From: an uncultured Erysipelotrichaceae bacterium
GTDB lineage: Bacteria; Bacillota_I; Bacilli_A; Erysipelotrichales; Erysipelotrichaceae
Assembly (NCBI GenBank): GCA_947036815.1
Contig: CAMQRS010000020.1
Coordinates: forward strand, 1-32,018
DNA length: 32,018 nt
Direction of reading: 5' to 3'
The notes under the pieces are model-generated. The model had not been told where the DNA came from. It was given only the letters and a program-made list of their open reading frames with translations, and made no database searches. Positions 2,841 to 19,171 of the stretch are shown here, in pieces (the first letter of the stretch is position 1; each line of letters starts with the position of its first letter). Position numbers and translations under genes: made by a program.

Positions 2841-3050
2841 AGAAAAAGTCCCTAGATAATATCTAAGGACGTGATTTACTTACGTGGTACCACCTTAGTT
2901 CATACAATAAATGTATGCACTCAACTCTGTAACGTAGAGATACGTATTTTCTTACTTATGTTCAGAAAATCTGCTCCTAAGTGATATTTAATAATGTTGT
3001 CATACTAATTTACACCAACCATTAGCTCTCTATAAATCTCTCATTATTAA
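2841..3050 (-). promoter_or_regulatory. T-box leader (Ile specifier) upstream of ileS
   Basis: Read on the minus strand, the leader has the AGAGAGCTAATGG-type Stem I start followed by GGTTGGTG (3013-3030). A specifier region at 2973-2985 places ATC (Ile; plus-strand 2983-2985) 10 nt before GGAGC-type sequence. The canonical T-box AAGGTGGTACCACG lies at 2883-2896. A terminator stem (2848-2857 with 2861-2870, one G-U pair) is followed by TTTTTC. The antiterminator uses the TGGT bulge, which pairs with the uncharged tRNA acceptor end. The leader ends about 20 nt before the ileS start. I did not find a convincing promoter of its own between divIVA and the leader. Confidence 0.93.
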
Positions 3051-3056
3051 CTTGTC

Positions 3057-3515
3057 TTATTCATCGCATGTGTCTAATAATTCTTTGTTTGGTATTGGCG
3101 GAACATCAAAGTTTTGTAACGCTTTCGTTAATAACTCCAGCTGATCATTCATATGTTCTTTCATTTCTTTTGCTTCTACACCTAGCTTACTCATATCAAT
3201 TAAAATTTCTTTTGCACTAAGCAAAGCTTCTCTTACGATAATATCTGCATTTTTTGATGCATTGTATATCATTTCGTTGGCTTCTTTTAGGGCTAATTGA
3301 GTCATTTCACTAGCTGCTCTCTCTTTTATTCCAATTTCTTCTTGGATAAAAGCAAGTTTAATTTCTAACTCTTTAATCTGATTTGTATCTTCAACACTTT
3401 GTTTTTGATATGCACTAACTTGTCTTCTTAATACAGCTAATTCAGCATTTAATTCATTTAAGGTATCATCCACTTGATAACGATTATACCCAGTTTTCAT
3501 TATATCAAAAGTCAT
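3057..3515 (-). CDS. divIVA: DivIVA-family cell-division / pole-targeting protein (short)
   Basis: 152 aa. The N-terminus (F-x4-GYN-x4-VDDTLNEL, residues 3-21) matches the DivIVA/GpsB lipid-binding domain pattern. Residues about 22-140 are charged heptad-rich sequence, expected to form a coiled coil. It probably binds curved membrane at septa or poles and recruits partners. The position between ylmH and ileS is the standard divIVA locus. The start ATG has AAGGAGG upstream and lies 12 nt after the ylmH stop, which indicates co-transcription. The coding sequence ends just before the ileS T-box. Confidence 0.87.
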   Translation of the reverse strand: MTFDIMKTGYNRYQVDDTLNELNAELAVLRRQVSAYQKQSVEDTNQIKELEIKLAFIQEEIGIKERAASEMTQLALKEANEMIYNASKNADIIVREALLSAKEILIDMSKLGVEAKEMKEHMNDQLELLTKALQNFDVPPIPNKELLDTCDE

Positions 3516-5033: not shown

Positions 5034-5816
5034 TTACAGCATAAATTCTTTTTTCAAAGCTTGTATTGCATTTTTTTCTAATCTAGATACTTGCGCTTGC
5101 GAAATGCCTAATTCACTGGCTATCTCACTTTGGGTCATATCTTCATAAAAGCGTTTCCGAATAATATCCAACTCTTTACGTTGTAAATTTTTCAAACTTT
5201 TATGTAGTGTGATGCTATTACTTATGTTGCTGGCTTCATCTTTATCTTCTTTAATTTGGTCTAGTAAATACATTTCATCTCCATCACTATTGAATATTGG
5301 TTCATAGATAGATAGTACACTGTGCATTGAACCCAATGCATCAACAACGTCTTTATAACTAACCTCTAGTTTTTGAGCTAAATATTCAATAGGTGGATCG
5401 ATTTTATTTGCTTGTACATACTCTTCTTTTAATTTATATACCTTGTAGGAAATATCCTTTAGATGTCTCGCTACCTTTACACTTTGATAGTCTCTTAAAT
5501 ATCTCTTAATTTCTCCAATAATCATCGGTACTGCATACGTCGAAAATCGAACGTTATATACTAAGCTAAAATTTTCTATTGCTTTCATCAATCCAATACA
5601 TCCTACTTGAAATAAATCATCTAAATTGTCGCTACGATTTGTGAATCGCTGAACCATCGATAATACTAACTTTAAATTCCCATTAAATAACTGTTCTCTT
5701 ATATGAATATCTTTAGTTTCTATATATTGTTTAAATAGTTTCACCATTTCATCATTCTTCAAAACAATCAATTCCTGTGTATTAATTCCTACAATCTGTA
5801 CTTTGTGCTTACTCAT
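5034..5816 (-). CDS. sigG: RNA polymerase sporulation sigma factor SigG
   Basis: 260 aa, the usual length. The N-terminus MSKHKVQIVGINTQELIVLK is diagnostic for sigma-G. Sigma region 2 contains DDLFQVGCIGLMKAIENF and FSTYAVPMIIGEIKRYLRD. Region 4 ends with a helix-turn-helix, SEIASELGISQAQVSRLEK. Sigma-G directs late forespore transcription. The strong start has AGGAGGAATTT before ATG. The gene is separated from sigE by about 70 nt, enough for a forespore promoter of its own, though I could not identify one with confidence. Confidence 0.96.
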   Translation of the reverse strand: MSKHKVQIVGINTQELIVLKNDEMVKLFKQYIETKDIHIREQLFNGNLKLVLSMVQRFTNRSDNLDDLFQVGCIGLMKAIENFSLVYNVRFSTYAVPMIIGEIKRYLRDYQSVKVARHLKDISYKVYKLKEEYVQANKIDPPIEYLAQKLEVSYKDVVDALGSMHSVLSIYEPIFNSDGDEMYLLDQIKEDKDEASNISNSITLHKSLKNLQRKELDIIRKRFYEDMTQSEIASELGISQAQVSRLEKNAIQALKKEFML

Positions 5817-5885: not shown

Positions 5886-6587
5886 TTAATGGGATTTCAT
5901 TTGTACTTTAAGTTTTTGAATAATTTTTTTTTCTAACCTAGATATATAAGATTGAGATATTCCCAATAATAACGCTACATCTTTTTGAGTTAATTCCTCA
6001 TGCTCAATCCCATATCTCATTTGCATGATTAATTTTTCTCTACCTTTCAAGGTATTTAATGCACTTAATAATTCTTTCTTATCTTCTTTTTTTTCTAATT
6101 CTTTTTTCGTCACATCACCAGCTGTTCCAATAATGTCTGATAAGAGTAATTCATTACCATCAAAATCAACATTTAGTGGCTCATCAAAACTAACTTCTAT
6201 TTTTTGCTTATTCTTTTTACGCAAGTGCATTAATATTTCGTTTTCTATGCATCTAGATGCGTATGTAACTAGTTTTATTCCTTTGTCCCTTTTAAACGTC
6301 TTTACTGCTTTAATTAATCCAATGGAACCGATACTAATTAAATCTTCCATAAAAATAGGATTCGTTTCATAGCGCTTCGCAATAAATACAACTAAACGCA
6401 AGTTATGCTCTATTAAGGTATCTCTAGCTTCTTCGCTACCTTCTTCTAATGCAATTAACTGCTTTAATTCTTCTTCACTATTTAATGGTTTTGGTAATGC
6501 ATCATTCCCATGCAAATAGTACACTTCCTGCGTATCTTTTCTAACGAATAATAAAGTATATATTCTCTTCCATATGTTTCTCCACAT
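5886..6587 (-). CDS. sigE: RNA polymerase sporulation sigma factor SigE (pro-sigma-E)
   Basis: 233 aa from the start at 6587, which has AGGTGG upstream and begins 8 nt after the spoIIGA stop. A longer frame overlapping spoIIGA is less likely. The hydrophobic, basic N-terminus (MWRNIWKRIYTLLFVRK) is the expected pro-sequence that holds pro-sigma-E at the membrane until SpoIIGA cleaves it. Next come DEVYYL-like EVYYLHGNDALPKPL, region 2 (MEDLISIGSIGLIKAV, VTYASRCIENEILMHLR), SFDEPLN, and a region 4 helix-turn-helix (DVALLLGISQSYISRLEKK). It directs early mother-cell transcription. Confidence 0.97.
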   Translation of the reverse strand: MWRNIWKRIYTLLFVRKDTQEVYYLHGNDALPKPLNSEEELKQLIALEEGSEEARDTLIEHNLRLVVFIAKRYETNPIFMEDLISIGSIGLIKAVKTFKRDKGIKLVTYASRCIENEILMHLRKKNKQKIEVSFDEPLNVDFDGNELLLSDIIGTAGDVTKKELEKKEDKKELLSALNTLKGREKLIMQMRYGIEHEELTQKDVALLLGISQSYISRLEKKIIQKLKVQMKSH

Positions 6588-6595
6588 TTTTCCAC

Positions 6596-7312
6596 CTACA
6601 TTTCTATATTCAATAAACATTCACACCCATAAGGCAAGTTTATTTGATTATTAAAGCATATGTATACCCATTGCTTTTTATGATAATTTATCGATATTTC
6701 TACTAAATAAATTAACGTATTCTCATATTGGGACACTCCTTTAAATGCATATAGTGTTCCATTACATTGATTCATATTATGTTTATACTTATCATCCACA
6801 AATACAATTGCTACCCCCTCATATACGCATAAATTGCCACTATCCAAGTACCCTTTTAATTGAATTGTTTGATCATTCATAAACACTCTCATTGGATACA
6901 CAAACTGTTTTTTATCAACAAATGAATTCCATTTCATATGTAAACAAAGACTCATAAACAAACAGACAATTAAACTAATCATCAGGCTTATACTATAATC
7001 TACAAAGTAATAACCGATATAAAAGGTACCACCAAATACAATGTATTGTAAGAGAAACAAAACATATCTAATAGAGATATACATCATTAATTTTTTTATT
7101 GTATTTCTGAAAAAGTATAAGTAAATAAAGTAAGTTGCCCAATACACATGTAAGATGTTACCCATATGAATAATGAGTAATACTTGTTCAACCAACAACA
7201 CCATTAAATACATCTTTGTATTAAGCTTTTGAAGCGAAAAATTAGTAGATAATTCATACGCCAGTATTGAGATACAAACACAATTCACTATCACCATCTC
7301 TATTGAATACAT
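6596..7312 (-). CDS. spoIIGA: SpoIIGA, pro-sigma-E processing protease (short form)
   Basis: 238 aa from the ATG at 7312, preceded by a near-perfect GGGGAGGAGG. An upstream extension of the open frame contains the promoter and is rejected. The N-terminal half (residues about 1-125) holds several hydrophobic membrane segments, and the C-terminal half is soluble. The aspartic-protease motif GYLDSGN lies around Asp157, as in the DTGN/DSGN centre of SpoIIGA. It is activated by forespore SpoIIR and cleaves pro-sigma-E. B. subtilis SpoIIGA is about 309 aa, so this is a compact version, shorter mainly in the C-terminal domain. It is followed within 8 nt by its substrate gene sigE. Confidence 0.9.
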   Translation of the reverse strand: MYSIEMVIVNCVCISILAYELSTNFSLQKLNTKMYLMVLLVEQVLLIIHMGNILHVYWATYFIYLYFFRNTIKKLMMYISIRYVLFLLQYIVFGGTFYIGYYFVDYSISLMISLIVCLFMSLCLHMKWNSFVDKKQFVYPMRVFMNDQTIQLKGYLDSGNLCVYEGVAIVFVDDKYKHNMNQCNGTLYAFKGVSQYENTLIYLVEISINYHKKQWVYICFNNQINLPYGCECLLNIEM

Positions 7313-7330
7313 AACCCTCCTCCCCTTAAT

Positions 7331-7364
7331 AGTATATAAAATTGAAAGATAAGATATTGTCGAA
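7331..7364 (-). promoter_or_regulatory. spoIIG-type promoter with Spo0A box
   Basis: On the minus strand the sequence carries TTCGACA (7364-7358), the reverse complement of the consensus 0A box TGTCGAA. A -10 TATACT lies at 7336-7331, 21 bp from the TCGACA hexamer. In B. subtilis the spoIIG promoter also has over-long spacing and is activated by phosphorylated Spo0A overlapping the -35. Transcription would start about 12 nt before the spoIIGA ribosome site and start codon. Confidence 0.75.
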
Positions 7365-7542
7365 TTAACTTTATTCAAATTTAAATTTGTTTCTTTTGAT
7401 TGATTAGAAACCACATTCATAGATAATACTCCCTGTTTATGGCATCTAGGACTTTACATGATATATTCATATGTTTCCTGGTGACATATTCGCGCTAGCA
7501 TATAAAAAAACTAGTAAGTAATAACACATCTATCGTACGTAT

Positions 7543-7607
7543 AACATAAAAAAGTCCTCCTTTTTAAATTGCGTTTCAATTACACGTTTTGATATTAGAG
7601 GACTTTT
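7543..7607 (-). terminator. Terminator of the thrC-thrB-pheB operon
   Basis: GAGGACTTTT and AAAAGTCCTC arms (7598-7607 and 7550-7559) form a perfect 10-bp stem with a 38-nt loop that contains a smaller AATTG/CAATT hairpin. Minus-strand reading gives CTTTTTT after the stem. Confidence 0.75.
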
Positions 7608-7618
7608 ATTTTATATTG

Positions 7619-18330: not shown

Positions 18331-18600
18331 ATAAAAAAAACATTCACCCTACATAAAGGGCGAATGTATCGCGTTACCACCTTGTTTTATAAATATCTCA
18401 CAATATTTACCTCATTGAGTACTATCATACTCTAACATTTTTAACGGATGTACCCGACATGATTTTACAATTGCTCAACCACATAGCTCCAAGACCATTT
18501 TCATTTTACTTTCTTTATCCTTTTTCACCAAACAAGGATTCTCTACAAAAGAAATATAAAATTACTCTTCTTTTCATCGCTTTTATTTATGATTTCAATG
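18331..18600 (-). promoter_or_regulatory. T-box leader (Met specifier) upstream of metNIQ
   Basis: Minus-strand reading shows AGAGAATCC then TTGGTG, a specifier segment with ATG at plus-strand 18496-18498 placed 10 nt before GGAGC (the same register as the Ile leader). The T-box AAGGTGGTAACGCG lies at 18370-18383. The terminator stem (18341-18349 with 18358-18366, one G-U pair) is followed by TTTTTTTT. A Met specifier fits the downstream methionine importer. Confidence 0.93.
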
Positions 18601-19089: not shown

Positions 19090-19171
19090 TATCTCACCTC
19101 ATACATAGTATACAAATAAGTGACAGCTAATTTTGTCGTTATTTCACACAAATCAACAATAAAAATAATGG

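Follow-up and report, generated by a model that had tools for sequence, protein, structure and literature searches.

The spoIIGA-sigE operon of an uncultured, gut-type Erysipelotrichaceae bacterium, which encodes a sporulation factor of the mother cell, was found to be preceded by a real, functional-looking promoter of a known kind, in which a box for the master regulator Spo0A (0A box) stands at the -35 position, 21 bp from the -10 element. As read from the DNA, this promoter for spoIIGA-sigE(-sigG) would lack a usable -35 at normal spacing and would, with high probability, be activated by phosphorylated Spo0A bound at the -35 position. In the window it has a single consensus box and a very short predicted leader. 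The window is the whole stretch of 32,018 nucleotides that was analysed, and belongs to a genome of 1.68 Mb in 68 contigs.

Promoter and genes of the spoIIG operon

On the coding (minus) strand, the order of elements was TTCGACA (7364-7358), 21 bp, TATACT (7336-7331), ATTAAGGGGAGGAGGGTT and the ATG of spoIIGA at 7312. The features of the region are as follows.

7535 to 7618, minus strand: hairpin resembling a terminator, which follows the ACT-domain gene and lies some 190 bp upstream of the box; fold of -18 kcal/mol, with z -4.0 relative to shuffled sequences
7358 to 7364, minus strand: 0A box in the place of a -35; TTCGACA on the coding strand, TGTCGAA on the plus strand; read from the sequence
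7337 to 7357, minus strand: spacer between box and -10, exactly 21 bp; read from the sequence
7331 to 7336, minus strand: -10 element TATACT, from the sequence; relatives carry TATACT, TATAAT or similar
7315 to 7325, minus strand: Shine-Dalgarno stretch GGGGAGGAGGG, a strong ribosome site; read from the sequence
6596 to 7312, minus strand: spoIIGA, whose product is predicted to be a membrane aspartyl protease acting on pro-sigma-E and has a DSGN motif in its sequence; ATG at 7312-7310; Pfam Peptidase_U4
5886 to 6587, minus strand: sigE (pro-sigma-E), N-terminus MWRNIWKRIYTLLFVRKDTQEVYYLHG; the top NCBIfam matches, SigE equivalogs with 318.6 and 301.7 bits, do not reach their cut-offs
5034 to 5816, minus strand: sigG; NCBIfam SigG equivalog best, at 321 bits, below its cut-off

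An earlier note on this DNA had described a box at the -35 place, 21 bp from TATACT, and all of these elements were located at the positions given there. Its reading of the box as TGTCGAA was right in position but had to be amended in strand, the box being reversed relative to the gene. Transcription is predicted to start at about 7324-7327, from which the leader would measure 12-15 nt, mostly Shine-Dalgarno. The -35-like hexamer TCGACA, one base off TTGACA, overlaps the 0A box. The optimum spacer for sigma-A is 17 bp, and the gap of 21 bp lies 4 bp beyond it. No promoter of normal spacing was detected directly before ATG 7312 by the promoter scan.

Sigma-A promoters that Spo0A activates in the manner of spoIIG and spoIIE are marked by a 0A box overlapping the -35 position, by a good -10 element at 20-22 bp, beyond the sigma-A optimum, by their place in front of the spoIIGA-sigE genes that they drive, and by a genome that also encodes a cognate Spo0A whose DNA-binding and receiver domains are conserved. 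All of these were found, the -10 element at 21 bp and the operon as judged from gene order and identities. The upstream 0A site or sites of the multi-site Bacillus spoIIG promoter are absent from the window, where no second box with 0-1 mismatch was found within 60 nt on the upstream side.

The DSGN motif presumably reflects the role of SpoIIGA as an aspartyl protease. The sigE product is 60-75% identical to those of 34 close relatives, and its close relatives are labelled mostly Erysipelotrichaceae or Erysipelotrichales. Beyond sigG, Pfam identified SepF, YlmH, DivIVA and a class I tRNA synthetase, the last of these probably being ileS, headed by a T-box leader. In the window, the minus strand carries two T-box leaders, at 2862-3073 and 18353-18586, which exceed the Rfam gathering score. 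Upstream of spoIIGA lie a gene with weak ACT-domain matches and then two more minus-strand genes, which we take to be thrB and thrC. The hairpin after the ACT-domain gene, which was not picked up by the short-loop terminator scan, probably insulates spoIIG.

Conservation of box and spacing

The motif alone is weak evidence, as its counts in the genome are close to those of a reversed control. TGTCGAA was found 4 times in the window against 3.08 expected, which is unremarkable alone; TTCGACA-N20..22-TATAMT has a single match there, and 100 shuffles yielded none. Genome-wide, TTCGACA-N20..22-TANNNT gave 17 matches against 12 for the reversed control. The pattern CGACA-N20..22-TANNNT-N3..14-RGGNG, which includes a Shine-Dalgarno, gave 8 rows against 9 in the control, and three of the eight represent one site, the spoIIG promoter. 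Motif rarity was therefore dropped as proof, the loose pattern being about as common as its control, and the case is made by place and conservation.

Some other matches in the genome were set aside. A box match before a 96-aa ORF (L151) was rejected as lying inside the coding end of spoIIP (Pfam SpoIIP, 115 bits), and two more matches, L163 upstream of genes resembling minC/minD and L148 next to one resembling a kinase (names given from reading the translations), are probably due to chance. On the minus strand of the window at 19095-19138, CGACA-22 bp-TATACT, or a sequence close to it, is followed by GAGGTG before a 148-aa ORF (GTG 19089) that has no Pfam or NCBIfam match; as far as the letters go, this is a possible further Spo0A-type promoter. 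Elsewhere in the genome (L155/L168, G000:C8:14660-14711), the T-run of a terminator-like hairpin, recognised by reading, merges into TTCGACA-21-TATACT. The 126-aa ORF that follows has no Pfam or NCBIfam match and adjoins a gene that reads as guanylate-kinase-like.

Conservation in relatives had been named beforehand as a check, and its outcome was strongly positive. In the family of the window genome (f1), 145 genomes were searched; a close sigE, with E at most 8e-80, is present in 35 of them, counting the window genome. From 51 loci (L005-L055), one was kept per identical last 100 upstream nucleotides and a start-motif rule was applied, giving 29; L128 and L129 were added, giving 31 spoIIG loci. 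L028 and L030 had no usable start, and L007, lost to the start-motif rule and hence outside the 31, also reads TTCGACA-21-TATAAT. Of the 31 loci, 24 have GACA-N20..22 and a -10 with no more than one mismatch ahead of spoIIGA, against a mean of 0.3 and a maximum of 3 in shuffled sequences. When spacers of 12-28 bp were counted, 19 loci fell at 21 bp, 4 at 20 bp, 1 at 22 bp, and one each at 16 and 27 bp; about 0.1 locus per spacer length is expected from shuffling under the same rule. The full box plus -10 was within one mismatch in total at 15/31 loci (shuffled mean 0.09, maximum 1) and within two mismatches at 20/31. The GACA rule fails at L032 and L041, which read TTCGACT-21-TATACT, and at L029, which reads TTCGTCA.

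The earlier note had also remarked that only one box is obvious. This holds for the window and not for the whole family, in which the loci vary. Among 24 f1 loci, an exact second 0A box was present in 5 (0.15 expected) and one with at most one mismatch in 12 (4.37 expected); at two mismatches there was no excess (21 against 20.8). In the mutually similar loci L006, L008, L012 and L038, the exact second box lies, by reading, inside a terminator-like hairpin.

The same arrangement was observed before spoIIE. In the window genome, TTCGACA-22-TACTAT, a Shine-Dalgarno sequence and ATG were found, the match lying 21 nt ahead of a 493-aa fragment (its open frame has 625 aa) whose SpoIIE matches are below curated cut-offs (Pfam 21.2 bits, TIGR02865 53 bits); the free spacer rule picks 20 bp (TGTACT) at this locus, and the spacer is 22 bp with TACTAT. 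A relative of this SpoIIE is present in 36/145 genomes, two of the matches being weak. Of 30 spoIIE loci, L179 lacked a start, leaving 29. GACA-N20..22-(-10) precedes spoIIE in 26/29 (shuffled mean 0.22), with 21 bp in 23/29, and the GACA rule was not satisfied at L201. These counts are to be read with the choice of starts, which were picked by best promoter score (spacer 18-24) among Shine-Dalgarno starts and so favour the pattern, the spacer count itself being free over 12-28. Within f1 spoIIG and spoIIE spacers, T at +10 and +12 from the first base of the box is conserved, as is C at +14 in spoIIE.

Beyond f1, the geometry was also seen in family f12, a related small-genome lineage. From 33 f12 loci, two (L132, L133) gave no start. 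GACA-N20..22 with a -10 of at most one mismatch was found in 27 of the remaining 31 (shuffled mean 0.4, maximum 2), and the spacer is 21 bp in 26/31, with side peaks at 27 bp (6 loci) and 14 bp (3 loci). In other families, for which 37 of 38 fetched loci were counted (the f8 locus L127 was left out) and two mismatches were allowed in the -10, the rule held in f2 (3/3), f4 (3/3, all 20 bp), f6 (4/5), f17 (8/9) and f19 (2/3), and was poor in f9 (1/5), f13 (0/4) and f21 (0/5). A wider, looser look without shuffle control gave ACA-21-(-10) in 4/4 loci of f13, 5/5 of f21 and, again poorly, 1/5 of f9. The f21 box is TTCTACA or TTCAACA in 4/5 loci, the fifth (L119) being weak. One clostridial MAG read by eye (L054) carries TTTGACA-21-TAAAAT, and Paenibacillus cellulosilyticus carries ATAGACA-21-TATACT, 101 nt before the annotated start. 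Across lineages the core drifts between CGACA and TGACA, and the spacing stays. CGACA is the most common core, in 21/28 f1 spoIIG, 18/28 f1 spoIIE and 18/30 f12 loci. From the end of the -10, the start follows after 14-25 nt in f1 loci and after 15-22 nt in those of f12.

In f12 the box was often found to overlap the 5' arm of a terminator-like hairpin; the spacer is then taken up, in the direction of the -10, by the 3' arm and the T-run. This was observed in 19/31 loci (L060-L063, L065, L067, L069-L074, L076-L079, L082, L083, L131) against 3.9 expected when spacer and flank were shuffled. The same overlap in f1 was seen at 2/28 spoIIG loci (0.62 expected) and 2/28 spoIIE loci (0.67 expected), and the folding control reached p at most 0.05 at 17/31 f12, 5/28 f1 spoIIG and 2/28 f1 spoIIE loci. 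Paired letters of the hairpin vary together at several positions, which is descriptive, since the hairpins were chosen by pairing; the shuffling and folding controls serve as the tests. The tail IP(P/A)FLR, presumably that of FtsZ, ends 6 of the 19 upstream frames of the fused loci. We tentatively propose, at slightly less than even confidence, that f12 carries a single 40-bp fused terminator-promoter, in which the box also belongs to the terminator hairpin of the gene upstream, and which stops vegetative read-through into the sigma-E operon and starts transcription when Spo0A is active. This reading is weakened by the upstream genes, as frames on the same strand that end no more than 50 nt ahead of the box occur at 14/19 fused and also at 8/12 unfused loci, and a rival to the terminator hairpin is a pair of inverted 0A boxes. 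If the fused element is real, it fits the rigid 21-bp spacing, and the promoter in the window would represent this minimal design without the fusion. Our guess that f12 is the order RF39 comes from the available part of a survey that gives RF39 spoIIGA (PMC10868615).

Spo0A and the mode of activation

Spo0A_C was found twice in the window genome. One protein is a full-length Spo0A, with a receiver domain of 62.6 bits and a DNA-binding domain of 147.6 bits. The DNA-binding domain aligns over all 104 residues to the solved Spo0A structures 1FC3/1LQ1, and the stretch TTASRVERAIRHAIEVAW, which we take to contain the recognition helix, is identical. Co-occurrence was examined in a sample of 80 genomes, made up of 35 f1 genomes that carry a close sigE, 29 f12 genomes with spoIIGA and 16 f1 genomes without a close sigE. 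Spo0A_C was detected in 34/35 of the first (the miss, G132, is 79% complete), in 28/29 of the second (all except G247) and in 1/16 of the third (G007).

A mechanism can be outlined as follows. The -35-like TCGACA, 21 bp from the -10, would double as part of the consensus Spo0A box. RNA polymerase carrying the housekeeping sigma is expected to fire poorly alone at spoIIG, because there is no usable -35 at 17 bp and the hexamer is 21 bp away. In Bacillus spoIIG and spoIIE, phosphorylated Spo0A stimulates the polymerase via sigma region 4. As in these cases, phosphorylated Spo0A would bind the box and act on sigma region 4, leading to initiation, and the operon would then yield pro-sigma-E together with its activating protease. 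Spo0A binding, phosphate dependence, sigma-A use and co-transcription of sigG are what we infer for this operon, the phosphate dependence from the presence in the genome of a Spo0A with a receiver domain.

Conservation of GACA is no proof of Spo0A by itself, since the drift to TGACA also fits a plain -35 hexamer. The promoter might then be an ordinary, Spo0A-independent sigma-A promoter with TCGACA as its -35 and a long spacer, its likeness to a 0A box being a by-product of the -35 consensus. TCGACA is indeed one base from TTGACA, and several relatives read TTTGACA or TGTGACA. A plain -35, however, should favour about 17 bp, whereas at most one locus per set was found at 16, 17 or 18 bp against 19, 23 and 26 at 21 bp. 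The most common core, CGACA, favours a 0A box over TTGACA, and Spo0A co-occurs with the close sigE, so that we consider Spo0A-independence very unlikely. Still less credible is a start of spoIIGA at ATG 7420, served by an upstream promoter ATGTCA-18-TATCAT (7487-7458), with the box inside the coding region by chance. The longer frame does extend without a stop as far as 7420 and has a fair Shine-Dalgarno, and the promoter-like match was returned by the scan, but such matches numbered 4 in the stretch against 3.3 in shuffles, and the box and its spacing are conserved at the DNA level. The start was instead set at 7312 from the starts of relatives, their upstream stops and the profile score: the relatives' SpoIIGA N-termini (MESY(V/I)EV and similar) coincide with 7312, an in-frame stop lies within 7 codons upstream of the start in 16 of 31 upstream regions of relatives, and SpoIIGA cut at 7312 scored 31.0 bits against 27.8 from the longer start (Pfam PF03419, cut-off 28.4).

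The second Spo0A_C protein (L004, G000:C36:9531-9812) is 230 aa long and has no Response_reg (receiver) match in Pfam. It could bind the box and modulate or compete with Spo0A at spoIIG, and two or more Spo0A_C matches are indeed present in 31/35 f1 genomes with a close sigE. Its DNA-binding domain is, however, divergent (46-48 bits against 148-150), no solved relative of it was detected at E 0.001, and a single Spo0A_C match is the case in 26/29 f12 genomes; a role of this paralogue at the box is thus improbable. Activation by the full-length, phosphorylated Spo0A remains our preferred reading of the promoter.

Relation to known sporulation systems

Of the 30 f1 loci L005-L034, 28 have a SpoIIGA-like frame containing D(S/T)GN ahead of sigE, and at the remaining two, L028 and L030, a DSGN/DTGN frame is also near sigE. 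In NCBIfam the window protein has no SpoIIGA match, and G023, which has a SpoIIGA-like frame at L019, has no PF03419 match. In the part available of a 2024 KO-based survey, spoIIGA is among the genes additionally present in RF39 relative to an Erysipelotrichales reference, and this part appears to treat Erysipelotrichales as lacking spoIIGA (PMC10868615). The divergence of f1 SpoIIGA, which profile searches overlook or score too low, may explain this apparent absence. A divergent SpoIIGA is thus found before sigE in a group that the survey, in that part, appears to call spoIIGA-less. For Erysipelotrichi, the accessible text of PMC3533761 lists no spore-former with a complete genome. Our literature search, over titles and the openings of abstracts, returned no account of this promoter in Erysipelotrichaceae and no terminator fused to a Spo0A promoter.

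According to the available part of PMC3485338, Spo0A of Clostridioides difficile, a distant Firmicute, recognises the TGTCGAA core, and its DNA-binding domain binds upstream of spoIIAA, spoIIE and spoIIGA. The binding at spoIIGA is of low affinity, and no perfect box is present at early sporulation genes except spo0A (PMC3485338, same part). Unlike these C. difficile genes, the spoIIGA of the window has a perfect box.

The Bacillus logic, by which spoIIG and spoIIE are both switched on by Spo0A, is extended by the analysis to Erysipelotrichaceae and to uncultured relatives. The minimal form, with 21 bp and a near-absent leader, can serve to spot Spo0A targets in genomes of unculturable bacteria, and its fixed geometry allows the positioning of sigma region 4 by Spo0A to be tested directly. 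The spoIIE promoter of B. subtilis is a sigma-A, Spo0A-dependent promoter with a spacing of about 21 bp; the logic is the same, and f1 spoIIE promoters share the box-21-(-10) arrangement.

The earlier note had equated the window promoter with the design of B. subtilis spoIIG. Checked on B. velezensis (NZ_CP083716.1, L203), the resemblance stands, and box, spacer and leader differ. Both share TATACT, a -35-like element ending in ACA at a non-standard distance, and spoIIGA-sigE followed by sigG, and the spacer positions conserved in f1, +10, +12 and (in spoIIE) +14, are likewise T, T and C in B. velezensis. The B. velezensis promoter reads ATTGACA-22 bp-TATACT, whereas that of the window reads TTCGACA-21-TATACT; the element overlapping the -35 is two mismatches off the 0A box in the former and consensus in the latter. 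A near-consensus CTCGACA starts 53 bp upstream in B. velezensis, in contrast to the window with none (0-1 mismatch, 60 nt), and the distance from -10 to start is 55 nt against 18 nt. From these differences in spacer, box, upstream site and leader, the window promoter is best described as a compact variant of the Bacillus design.
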